Source of the DNA: Corallococcus sp. EGB
GTDB lineage: Bacteria > Myxococcota > Myxococcia > Myxococcales > Myxococcaceae
Assembly: GCF_019968905.1 (NCBI RefSeq)
Contig: NZ_CP079946.1
Span: 3,100,001 to 3,164,000, forward strand
Direction of reading: 5' to 3'
Length of the DNA: 64,000 nucleotides
Position 1 is the first letter of the stretch. The number at the start of each line of letters is the position of its first letter. Under the pieces are notes generated by a model. The model searched no databases and was not told the DNA's origin. It saw only the letters and a list, made by a program, of their open reading frames with translations. The position numbers were made by a program, and so were the translations under genes. Below are positions 57,052-59,707 of this stretch, one piece after another.

Positions 57052-57675
57052 ATGTTCCGCAGCGTCCTGATGCTCGCCGCCACCCTGTCGCTGTCCGCGT
57101 CCGCCGCGGAGCCCGCGCCATCCGAAAAGCACTTCGTCTTTCATGATCCGAACAGCCGCGACACGGTGATGTTCGTGCTGGACGCGCCTCTGGAGGTCAT
57201 CAACGGCCTGTCCAACCAGGTGACGGGCCGCGTGGACGTGAAGGGGCAGAAGGCCAGCGGCCGCTTCCAGGTGCCGGTGAGCTCCATCAAGACCGGCAAC
57301 GAGACGCGCGACGGCCACCTGCAGAACGACCGCTGGCTGGACGCGGCGAAGCACCCGGACATCGTCTTCGAGTTCAAGGACGTGGCCCTCCCCGCGCCGC
57401 TCGCCAACGCGAAGCCGGTGGTGCTCAAGACGAAGGGCACCTTCACGATCCACGGCGTCACGCGCGAGGAGCCCGTGGAGGTGACGGCCACGTACCTCCA
57501 GGAGACGGCCGAGACGAAGAATCGCGCCGCGGGTGAGCTCCTGCGCGTGCTTGCGAAGTTCCAGATTCCCCTGGAGGCCTATGGCATCCAGCGCACCGAA
57601 GCGCTGCTGCTGAAGGTGGGCGAGCGGGCCGATGTCACCGTTGACGCCTGGGGCTCCACGCAGTTCAAGCCGTAG
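57052..57675 (+). CDS. YceI-family periplasmic protein
   Basis: The 207-residue protein has a signal peptide (MFRSVLMLAATLSLSASAAE) and a lipocalin-like YceI domain (FVLDAPLEVINGLSNQVTG, GRFQVPVSSIKTGNETRD, NDRWLDAAKHPDIVFEFKDV, GTFTIHGVTREEPV). YceI proteins bind isoprenoid quinones or other lipids. ATG 57052 follows GAGG; the 13-base sequence before it is the same as that before the metalloprotease at 24690. It lies 56 bases upstream of the RiPP-like precursor gene and may be linked to it. Confidence 0.87.
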   Translation: MFRSVLMLAATLSLSASAAEPAPSEKHFVFHDPNSRDTVMFVLDAPLEVINGLSNQVTGRVDVKGQKASGRFQVPVSSIKTGNETRDGHLQNDRWLDAAKHPDIVFEFKDVALPAPLANAKPVVLKTKGTFTIHGVTREEPVEVTATYLQETAETKNRAAGELLRVLAKFQIPLEAYGIQRTEALLLKVGERADVTVDAWGSTQFKP

Positions 57676-57731
57676 CAGTCGTTGTCTGTCCCCCCCGTAG
57701 TCACCCCACGCGGTATGAAAGGAAGCAACAC

Positions 57732-57977
57732 ATGAACGTCAAGGCTCTCGCGGCGGTCGTCGGCACCCTGTCCCTCGGCGCCCTGGCCACCGGCTGCGCG
57801 TCCAACAAGGCCTCGGAGGGCAAGGTGCACGCCGCTTCGCCGGGCGCGCCCGAGGCCTCCGAGTCCAGCGCGGCCCCCGCCGACGGCGCTGCGCCCGCCG
57901 CGACCCACGAGAAGGGCGCCGAGGGCAGCTGTGGCGCCGGTTCCTGCGGCGCTGGCTCCTGCAGCGGCAAGAAGTAG
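57732..57977 (+). CDS. Lipid-anchored HvfA/bufferin-like precursor peptide
   Basis: The 81-residue protein starts MNVKALAAVVGTLSLGALAT and has a lipobox ATGC with Cys22. A Ser/Ala/Pro-rich linker follows, and the protein ends with GAEGSCGAGSCGAGSCSGKK, which places cysteines at 67, 72 and 77 with regular five-residue spacing. HvfA and bufferin peptides carry repeated EGKCG-type tails whose Cys residues are modified by MNIO enzymes to bind copper; here EGSCG occurs once and GAGSC twice. The next genes encode an MNIO enzyme and a DUF2063 partner, which supports the call. The lipobox would tether the peptide to a membrane, an unusual feature. A good AAAGGAAG ribosome site precedes ATG 57732. Confidence 0.78.
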   Translation: MNVKALAAVVGTLSLGALATGCASNKASEGKVHAASPGAPEASESSAAPADGAAPAATHEKGAEGSCGAGSCGAGSCSGKK

Positions 57978-57986
57978 TCATCGCCC

Positions 57987-58015
57987 GGGAGGGCCTGCGT
58001 GACAGGTCTCCTCCC
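57987..58015 (+). promoter_or_regulatory. First stem-loop downstream of the precursor gene
   Basis: GGGAGG pairs with CCTCCC, with inner CCTG/CAGG pairing around a 5-base loop. It starts nine bases after the precursor stop and immediately precedes the stronger terminator. It may protect the 3' end of the short transcript. Confidence 0.55.
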
Positions 58016-58020
58016 AGGCT

Positions 58021-58063
58021 CGCGGGCGGCGGGAAGCGTTCTTCCTGCCGCCCGTGTTGTTTT
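58021..58063 (+). terminator. Intrinsic terminator between precursor and maturation genes
   Basis: A 14-bp stem (CGGGCGGCGGGAAG with CTTCCTGCCGCCCG, one G-T pair) with loop CGTT is followed by TGTTGTTTT. It can be extended by two further pairs. This should end most transcripts of the precursor gene, so MNIO and DUF2063 would be made from read-through or another promoter. Confidence 0.82.
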
Positions 58064-58124
58064 CCGCCTGTCGCATCCGCTGTCCCGGCTTCCAGCTGTC
58101 CCGACCTCCAAGGAGGAGCGCCGC

Positions 58125-58973
58125 ATGCCGTCCCCCCGCTACGCAGACCGCCATGGATTGAAGCCGCTGGGGGCGGGTATCGGGTTGCGCCGCGACTTCT
58201 ACGAAGCGCTGCCGCGCACGCCGCGCGCGCTGGACTGGGTGGAGATCATCCCGGAGAACTTCCTCACGCTGGGGGGCCGCTCCCAACGCGCCCTGGACGC
58301 GTGCCGCGAGCGCTGGACACTGCTGCCGCACGGCGTGGGGCTCAACATCGGTGGGCCGGACGCGCTGGATGACGACTACGTCACCCGCCTGGCCGCGCTG
58401 GTGAGGCGGCTGGACGCGCCGTTCTTCTCGGATCACCTGTGCTACTCGCGCCTGGGCGGCGTGCACCTGCACGACCTGTTGCCGCTGCCCTTCTGCGAGG
58501 CCGCGGTGGAGCACGTGGTGCCGCGCGTGCGCGAGGTGATGGCGCGCGTGGAGCGCCCGTTCCTCCTGGAGAACCCCAGCTACTACGCGGCCATGCCGGG
58601 CGGCACGCTGAAGGAGGCGGACTTCCTGCGCCAGGTGGTGGAGGCCGCGGACTGCGGCCTGCTCCTGGACGTGAACAACGTCTGGGTCAACGCGCGAAAC
58701 CACGGCTACGACCCGCGCGCCTTCGTGGACGCGCTGCCCCTGGAGCGCGTCGTGCAGATCCACCTGGCCGGCCACGACGTGCGCGAGACCGTCCTCATCG
58801 ACACGCACGGCGACCGCGTCTGCGACGACGTGTGGGCCCTGTACCGCTACACGCTGGAGCGCACCGGCCCGGTGTCCACGCTGATGGAATGGGACCAGGC
58901 CATCCCGTCGCTCGACGCCGTGCTGGACGAGGCGGATCAGGCGCGGGCCGTGCTCGCGGAGGGCGCGCGATGA
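58125..58973 (+). CDS. MNIO (DUF692) RiPP maturation oxidase, HvfB/BufB-like
   Basis: The 282-residue TIM-barrel enzyme belongs to the multinuclear non-heme iron oxidases. The metal-site pattern is complete: His104 in FFSDHLCYS, Glu149 in LLENPSYY, Asp182 with Asn184/Asn185 in LLLDVNNVWVN, His193 in ARNHG, His213 and His217 in QIHLAGH, Asp226 and His228 in DTHGD and Glu255 in MEWD. MNIO enzymes convert Cys (or other residues) of precursor peptides to oxazolone/thioamide or similar groups. ATG 58125 follows GGAGGAG. It overlaps the DUF2063 gene by four bases and probably acts on the lipoprotein at 57732. Confidence 0.92.
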   Translation: MPSPRYADRHGLKPLGAGIGLRRDFYEALPRTPRALDWVEIIPENFLTLGGRSQRALDACRERWTLLPHGVGLNIGGPDALDDDYVTRLAALVRRLDAPFFSDHLCYSRLGGVHLHDLLPLPFCEAAVEHVVPRVREVMARVERPFLLENPSYYAAMPGGTLKEADFLRQVVEAADCGLLLDVNNVWVNARNHGYDPRAFVDALPLERVVQIHLAGHDVRETVLIDTHGDRVCDDVWALYRYTLERTGPVSTLMEWDQAIPSLDAVLDEADQARAVLAEGAR

Positions 58974-59707
58974 AGCCGTCGCTGAGGCACTTCTTCGACA
59001 GCATGGACGCGTACCTCGCGGGCCCTGCTGGTGCCGAAGGGTTGTTGAAGCTCTCCGCGTCGCACCCGGGCTGGGACGTGGATCCGGAGCGCATGGCGCT
59101 CTATGGCCAGTTCGTGCGCGGCCACGTGCGCTCCACACTGGAGAAGCTCTTCCCGCTGACGCGCGAGGCGGTGACGCCGGGAGCATGGGACGCGCTGGTG
59201 GAGGGCTACACCCTCACGCGGCCCGCGCGGCACTACGAGCTCAACCGCCTGGGCGAGGGCTTCGCGCCCTTCATCGCGGACGCCGCGGACAGCCGCGGGC
59301 TGCCTGCGTTCCTGCCCGCGCTCGCGCGCTTCGAGTGGACGGACTTCGCCGTGTTCGCCTCCGAGGAGGTCATCCCGGAGGCCGTGGAGCGCCTGACGCC
59401 CAACCCCACGCTGATGGTGCTGGAGCAGCCCTACCGGCTCTGCGCCTTCGTCCGGGCCCATGGCGCGCAAGCCGTGCCCGCGGAAGGGGAGGAGCTGGCG
59501 CTGCTCTGGCGCCACCCGGAGCGGCTGGTGACCTTCTACATGGAGGCCACGCCGCCCGCGCTGCTGGTGCTGAAGATGGCCGTGGAGGGCCTGTCCGAGG
59601 ACGCCGTCACCCACGCCACCGGCATGGCCGCGGCGGACGTCCACGCGGAGGTGGTGCGCTTCGCGAAGGACGGGCTGGTGCTCCTGCCGGCGTCGGCTCT
59701 TTCCTGA
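58970..59707 (+). CDS. DUF2063 RiPP maturation partner, HvfC/BufC-like
   Basis: The 245-residue protein begins MKPSLRHFFDSMDAYLAGPA. It has the DUF2063 N-terminal helical domain (ALYGQFVRGHVRSTLEKLFP and LTREAVTPGAWDALVEGY) and a C-terminal part with strands and a possible winged-helix (AVEGLSEDAVTHATGMAAAD). Such proteins bind precursor peptides and deliver them to the MNIO enzyme. The start overlaps the MNIO stop, indicating coupled translation. Confidence 0.88.
   Translation: MKPSLRHFFDSMDAYLAGPAGAEGLLKLSASHPGWDVDPERMALYGQFVRGHVRSTLEKLFPLTREAVTPGAWDALVEGYTLTRPARHYELNRLGEGFAPFIADAADSRGLPAFLPALARFEWTDFAVFASEEVIPEAVERLTPNPTLMVLEQPYRLCAFVRAHGAQAVPAEGEELALLWRHPERLVTFYMEATPPALLVLKMAVEGLSEDAVTHATGMAAADVHAEVVRFAKDGLVLLPASALS

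Follow-up and report, generated by a model that had tools for sequence, protein, structure and literature searches.

Within a 64,000-nucleotide stretch of the 9.43-Mb genome of Corallococcus sp. EGB (contig NZ_CP079946.1, positions 3,100,001 to 3,164,000; hereafter the window, in whose coordinates all positions are given), we analyzed a locus at 57732-59707 in which three genes on one strand encode a predicted lipoprotein precursor, a multinuclear non-haem iron oxidative enzyme (MNIO) and a DUF2063 partner protein (Table 1). An earlier note, made from the DNA letters alone, had described an 81-residue lipoprotein followed by an MNIO and an overlapping DUF2063 gene, and this description held, as judged by the open reading frames (ORFs), matches to PF05114 and PF09836, the lipobox and a 4-bp overlap (ATGA) between the two enzyme genes. 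The MNIO matches PF05114 with an E-value of 3.1e-102 (341.8 bits, cut-off 25), and its nearest solved structure is 3BWW (alignment E 8.5e-57); its ATG start codon is preceded by AAGGAGGAG. The partner scores 50.8 bits against PF09836 (cut-off 27.2), and a profile of 29 partners aligned with 3DEE over positions 26-163 (E 2e-8), with the second (NGO1945-like) domain partly covered. An AlphaFold model of the partner, made from 5 sequences, had a predicted local distance difference test score (pLDDT) of 53.2 and was left unused for fold search.

Table 1 Features of the locus and of the gene upstream of it, in window coordinates
Feature	Position	Strand	Evidence
YceI-family periplasmic protein	57052..57675	+	PF04264 E 8.8e-24; start uncertain, ATG 57040 or 57052
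Precursor peptide, 81 aa, lipoprotein with Cys tail	57732..57977	+	ORF; orthologues in 69/69 loci
Predicted type II signal peptide, residues 1-21 (MNVKALAAVVGTLSLGALATG)	57732..57794	+	Sequence
Cys22, predicted lipidation site	57795..57797	+	Lipobox L18-A-T-G-C22
Core tail EGSCG-AGSCG-AGSCS, Cys67/Cys72/Cys77, predicted 5-thiooxazoles	57921..57965	+	Sequence, Cys spacing, EGKCG in orthologues
MNIO, 282 aa, BufB/HvfB type	58125..58973	+	PF05114
DUF2063 partner (PME-type 1), 245 aa	58970..59707	+	PF09836 E 2.1e-13

The precursor matched no Pfam family, found no match at E 1e-3 among 72,556 plasmid records, and has no full-length second copy that we could find in the host genome. A second match to the GSCGAGSCG-type DNA pattern in the genome had no precursor-like ORF around it and was taken as chance. 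In 12 aligned relatives a CCACGCAGTACCGAAAGGAAG-like stretch precedes the precursor start codon, slightly changed at window positions 57700-57731, and part of this stretch is likely the ribosome-binding site.

We searched 195 Myxococcota genomes with the MNIO of the window and obtained a match in 126. Among the matches listed, 69 loci at at least 76% identity (76-100%), from 63 genomes of the window's family, were taken as the orthologous set. A lipobox precursor lies beside the MNIO in all 69, ending between -6 and 147 bp from the MNIO start, and the MNIO and partner genes are full length throughout. The rule used to pick precursors for this count required a lipobox; a rule without that requirement returned the same ORF in 67 of the 69 loci (one with a different start), and its automatic pick was wrong at L058 and L125. 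At L017 the precursor start as picked lies 8 residues too early. The lipobox is LATGC, LAAGC or LASGC in every case, and the Cys residues in the last 22 positions are always 5 residues apart, numbering two in 40 loci, three in 27 and four in 2. A lipobox precursor with this Cys spacing at 69/69 loci argues that its pairing with the MNIO is not chance; it also bears out the expectation that the Cys tail would be conserved in homologues beside Myxococcota MNIOs. The ratio of non-synonymous to synonymous polymorphism (pN/pS) was lowest for the signal peptide (0.23) and higher for the linker (0.92) and the tail (0.72), a pattern of selection that marks the precursor as a real gene.

Within the window's genus, 14 of 16 genomes have the locus; the other two, G004 and G012, which consist of 960 and 890 contigs, gave no match. 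The upstream M61-like gene accompanies the locus in 15 of the 18 relatives searched for it, always within ~3 kb of the MNIO, and the locus is therefore inherited in place. Seven named loci have the precursor (three Corallococcus, three Myxococcus and one titled Comamonas), and two precursors are identical to those in species records: G009 to the C. sicarius record (L019 = L003) and G008 to the C. praedator record (L020 = L004). A Myxococcus-type locus also stands in BNCN01000006.1 (L008), whose title, 'Comamonas sp. KCTC 72670', looks mislabelled. Two genera were seen to have the cassette twice (L055, L057, L058, L060, L063 and L125), the second copy with a precursor richer in Cys; six of the 69 loci, of this second-copy type, have 6 Cys in the mature part, and the distance between the two copies is ~55-66 kb in three genomes.

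Divided into 5-mers as in the literature, the tail of the window precursor is EGSCG-AGSCG-AGSCS, that is, EGKCG with K replaced by S. The earlier note had divided it as GSC-GAGSC-GAGSC and had set it apart from the usual EGKCG repeat. The two do differ, and the window precursor lacks the repeated EGKCG by which HvfA is recognized; however, a separate motif is not what the orthologues indicate, as EGKCG repeats (EGKCGEGKCGEGKCG or longer) occur in the orthologous precursors L045, L050, L051 and L121 of a sister genus (g7). Other tails of this genus include that of L122, EGTCGEGQCGEGQCG, and mixtures such as EGKCGSGSC in L042. Across the 169 tail Cys of the 69 loci, the preceding residue is S in 106, G in 36, K in 20, A in 3, T in 2 and Q in 2, and the following residue is G in 143, S in 17, N in 5, A in 3 and K in 1; after the last tail Cys comes Gly in 44 loci and Ser in 17, the window included. 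Of six clade precursors scanned in addition to that of the window, two pass the HvfA model NF050137 (L121 with 19.7 and L053 with 22.8, cut-off 19.5). In a tree of MNIOs, the 69 orthologues fall together on one side of a branch (100/96), and K-tails are nested among S- and G-tails in a way that forces at least three changes of tail label. Because EGKCG occurs in orthologous precursors, two of the six exceed the HvfA cut-off and the tree nests the tail types, the sequences indicate that the window tail is an interchangeable form of EGKCG, the oxazolin repeat, with K changed to S (and E to A), rather than a separate invention. In another order, L074 encodes a precursor (start codon chosen automatically) with a lipobox and the C-terminal end GAGSCGAGSCGG; the lipobox/tail form is therefore older than the window's family, or arose twice. 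A different tail, with repeated DAGCPSCG(S/A)A, was seen in a precursor-like protein beside the MNIO of L080 (G182).

In the MNIO, 17 polar positions, H, D, E and N among them, reach a conservation of 98% or more across 127 copies of the enzyme. Among the equivalog models, it narrowly exceeds the cut-off for BufB (NF050167; 314.4 bits against 310) and falls under that for HvfB. We mapped the functional sites of FonB by motif and by the 3BWW alignment, and the counterparts of FonB Arg15/Arg16, Asp249 and Phe250 came out as Arg22, Arg23, Asp257 and Gln258. For FonB, a model places the two Arg in contact with the EGKCG Glu, and Asp249 is the proposed catalytic base (PMC13097082); the Arg-Arg pair is kept in 68 of the 69 orthologous MNIOs. 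Phe250 of FonB meets the Lys and Gly flanking the Cys, and enzymes for Cys-Lys substrates have Asp there (PMC13097082). We also compared 32 more distant Myxococcota loci, which are related, so that the counts are not independent: those whose picked precursor has repeated Cys-Lys have Asp or Glu at the specificity site in 13/16, and the remaining loci have Gln, Asn, Ala, Ser or Thr in 14/16 (L087 was mis-picked, and L098, with no candidate, was dropped). FonBC is described as tolerating replacement of the Lys by Ala, Arg or Thr, though not by Phe or Glu (PMC13097082), so EGSCG and AGSCG should be usable, and the simplest reading is that the Gln enzyme tolerates many residues before the Cys. After the Cys, FonBC is described as taking only Gly and, among the double variants tried, Ala (PMC13097082).

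The gene order, both enzyme families, the conserved lipobox and Cys spacing, and the interchange with EGKCG between orthologues are directly observed. The invariant adjacency and the enzyme families support the earlier suggestion of a Cys-tail peptide of the bufferin/oxazolin kind, presumptively modified by the MNIO and DUF2063 proteins, and we consider it probable that the locus makes an outer-membrane-anchored captophorin, that is, a 5-thiooxazole copper peptide. From the relatives of this system we infer modification, lipidation, sorting and a copper role as follows. The DUF2063 partner would bind the precursor in the cytoplasm and present its tail to the MNIO, which would oxidize Cys67, Cys72 and probably Cys77 to 5-thiooxazoles, with a loss of 4 Da each. 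For the tail peptide GAEGSCGAGSCGAGSCSGK, the calculated [M+H]+ is 1545.57 unmodified, 1533.48 with three modified Cys and ~1537.5 with two. Export by Sec, diacylation at Cys22 and cleavage by signal peptidase II would follow, and the lipopeptide, with Ala rather than Lys at +2, would be transported to the outer membrane, where the thiooxazole tail, on a variable and probably disordered linker, would keep Cu(I) at a distance from the cell. In relatives, peptides bearing thiooxazoles bind copper, and excess copper often induces the pathways that make them (PMC13097082). Lipidation of MNIO peptides has precedent: E. coli lipidated both DybA and NedA, and NedA, together with NedBC, gave a lipidated oxazolin with a loss of 12 Da (PMC12636315). 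Thus the lipid anchor, which the earlier note took as the unusual point, is not new in itself, as hybrids between lipoproteins and MNIO-modified ribosomally synthesized and post-translationally modified peptides (RiPPs) have already been published (PMC12636315), and lipoprotein signal peptides have been predicted for some Buf2 bufferins (PMC12452194).

Several findings weigh against the captophorin assignment. The window precursor scores 13.5 bits with the HvfA model, under the cut-off of 19.5. Four of the six clade precursors scanned miss the HvfA cut-off, including the EGKCG-bearing L045 (14.2), and the partner scores 64 against the HvfC equivalog, well under its cut-off of 142. The FonB 250 site is Gln in 68 of the 69 loci and Ala in one, and it is Gln even with an EGKCG tail, so the specificity differs from that of FonB. 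In the window, the residue after Cys77 is Ser, outside those that FonBC accepted, and the modification of this Cys is therefore the least certain of the three. Many known clusters have an adjacent DoxX gene, whereas the window locus has none, the nearest lying ~34 kb off among the genome matches listed, and none stands beside the MNIO locus in the 8 genomes checked. Finally, the metal bound by the tail could be other than copper.

The published 'CxxxxC' family, whose lipidated form, Cluster X, is mentioned without characterization (PMC12636315), offers another assignment, under which the window precursor would belong to a group already described though uncharacterized. Like the window locus, these clusters combine a signal peptide, Cys-x4-Cys and the MNIO and DUF2063 pair; Cys-x4-Cys is present in every one of the 69 tails, and lipidated precursors with a conserved CxxxxC are reported (PMC12636315). 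Cluster X, compared here by description only, might include the window's precursor family. However, the x4 spacing is also a property of EGKCG repeats, and a Lactamase_B_2 gene accompanies 54% of CxxxxC clusters (PMC12452194), whereas among the matches listed in 8 genomes searched neither Lactamase_B_2 nor DoxX lies beside the locus. The set in PMC12452194 comprises 76 CxxxxC proteins, all from Pseudomonadati. On balance we regard this assignment as rather unlikely.

We also looked at the signal peptide and the first mature residues of the precursor, which bear on its destination. The +2 residue is Ala in 67 of the 69 orthologues, Val in two and never Lys, which argues against an inner-membrane location, given that Lys is found there in 8 of 12 putative inner-membrane lipoproteins of M. 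xanthus (PMC3222651). At +7, where Ala is needed for matrix sorting of FibA (PMC3222651), Ala is found in 56 of the 69 and Ser in the window; Ala makes up 24% of residues in the mature peptides. Conservation beyond the lipobox takes the form C-A-S/T-x-K-x-A-E, with Lys at +5 in 62 of the 69. Over 18 genomes, the signal peptide has a mean identity of 85% to that of the window, compared with 51%, 15% and 30% for the first three of five control lipoproteins (an M13 peptidase, a second control and an M61-like protein), 20% for BamD and 76% for a Pal-like protein; over all pairs, the precursor stands at 79% and the five controls, listed as before, at 46%, 29%, 21%, 46% and 72%. Control loci were kept in 8/18, 11/18, 15/16, 18/30 and 27/30 cases, those left out being less similar matches; start sites of the controls were picked automatically and some are probably wrong (for example L150 and L171), and rows in which no signal peptide was found were dropped (0/8, 1/11, 4/15, 3/17 and 8/26). 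The bufferin authors mention preliminary evidence for a signal peptide acting as leader (PMC12452194), and in the alanine scan of the FonA substrate reported in PMC13097082 no single pre-core position was strictly required. A doubling of the signal peptide as the leader recognized by the enzyme is only suggestive here, because one of the five controls, the Pal-like protein, is nearly as conserved.

An extension of these ideas is that the peptide would be a copper trap displayed on the outer membrane or in the matrix and passed among kin by outer membrane exchange, as happens with other Myxococcus lipoproteins that have a type II signal, with a signal peptide serving both as leader and as lipidation signal. 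The hints are the Ala or Val at +2, the Ala at +7, and the report that in M. xanthus a type II signal for the outer membrane is enough to bring about transfer (PMC3325183). We consider this extension distinctly unlikely; if it were true, copper protection would be a shared good.

With respect to the chemistry of a captophorin, the tail might instead be modified to something besides 5-thiooxazole. The near-invariant Gln in place of Phe or Asp at the specificity site would fit this, as would the ambiguous equivalog result, with BufB barely over its cut-off and HvfB under. However, the catalytic Asp and the conserved polar positions are kept, the F250D variant of FonB still formed 5-thiooxazole and, in the account of the same source, all characterized MNIO-PME1 clusters install 5-thiooxazole (PMC13097082), so that a different product seems very doubtful. 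A further alternative, in which the precursor would be an ordinary thiol lipoprotein serving in metal binding or redox and the MNIO would have another substrate, is also very improbable: the K/S/G variation indicates that the residues near the Cys can change freely, as they could if the Cys were an unmodified thiol ligand, and the genome has a second, distant MNIO-domain protein of ~550 aa, but the same-strand MNIO and partner adjoin the precursor in 69/69 loci, no second full-length precursor was found in the genome, and orthologues carry EGKCG repeats, a known MNIO substrate motif.

The second MNIO-domain protein (G000:C1:4593649-4595301, L129:2650-4302) has 550 aa; its MNIO domain lies at the N-terminus and is followed by a long extension to the C-terminus. 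Proteins of this type match the window MNIO with 48.8-56.0 bits in 16/16 genomes of the genus, and no obvious precursor lies alongside. A further MNIO, ~40% identical to that of the window and with the motifs YRWD and EMDSGFP, is found in the 15/15 other genomes of the genus (L024-L038), and in G000 this type gave just a weak 52-residue match. These loci have no match to the window's DUF2063 partner; ten have no precursor candidate and five a 193-aa ORF.

The gene directly upstream of the precursor, separated by a gap of 56 bp, encodes a YceI-family protein. We considered YceI as a conserved partner and rejected this, as only 25 of the 69 orthologous loci have a YceI gene directly upstream. 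A wider YceI link was likewise set aside: upstream proteins at the Buf2-type loci L083 and L087 that looked YceI-like by eye gave no Pfam match at E 0.1. The YceI gene is an optional neighbour, possibly co-transcribed with the precursor. Downstream of the DUF2063 gene lie genes for a chalcone isomerase-like protein and then an M13 peptidase.

Among known systems, NedA of Neisseria dentiae, a DAG-RiPP (PMC12636315), is similar to the window precursor in its type II signal peptide, its three Cys repeats and its MNIO and partner; a type II signal peptide is predicted on the MNIO substrate throughout the window clade, where a lipobox is present in 69/69 loci. In contrast to the myxobacterial EGSCG-AGSCG-AGSCS, NedA keeps EGKCG. 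The EGKCG captophorins (oxazolin HvfABC, fontiphorin FonABC and gonophorin; PMC13097082) share with the window the gene trio, the 5-residue Cys repeats and an enzyme with two Arg and the catalytic Asp. The window differs in the Gln at the FonB 250 site, the degenerate residue before the Cys, the lipobox and the absence of an adjacent DoxX gene. Buf2 bufferins, ~16% of which have predicted lipoprotein signal peptides, share the lipobox in that subset, the MNIO and DUF2063 pair and a proposed copper role (PMC12452194). However, they have 6 or 12 Cys, and the specificity site is acidic in 13 of the 16 loci of Cys-Lys type compared here; the window shows neither pattern. The window precursor has no DUF2282 (Buf1) or BufA2 match; as a comparison, the precursor of L079, which has 6 Cys, passes BufA2 (67.1 against 60). 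A search of the literature by title and abstract, supplements not covered, found no paper dealing with this locus, and the main text of PMC12452194 contains neither 'Myxococc' nor 'YceI'. The degenerate tail, the clade of Gln enzymes, the minimal cassette over 63 genomes of one family and the possible link to outer membrane exchange may be new.

If the captophorin assignment is right, the locus would add a whole family of social, predatory bacteria to the range of the captophorin/DAG-RiPP class. In bacteria that exchange outer membrane lipoproteins, the location of a copper-binding lipopeptide is a question that can be put to the test. The natural series of tails, EGKCG, EGSCG, EHGCG and EGQCG, combined with one nearly constant enzyme, makes the rules of substrate choice by MNIOs directly testable.

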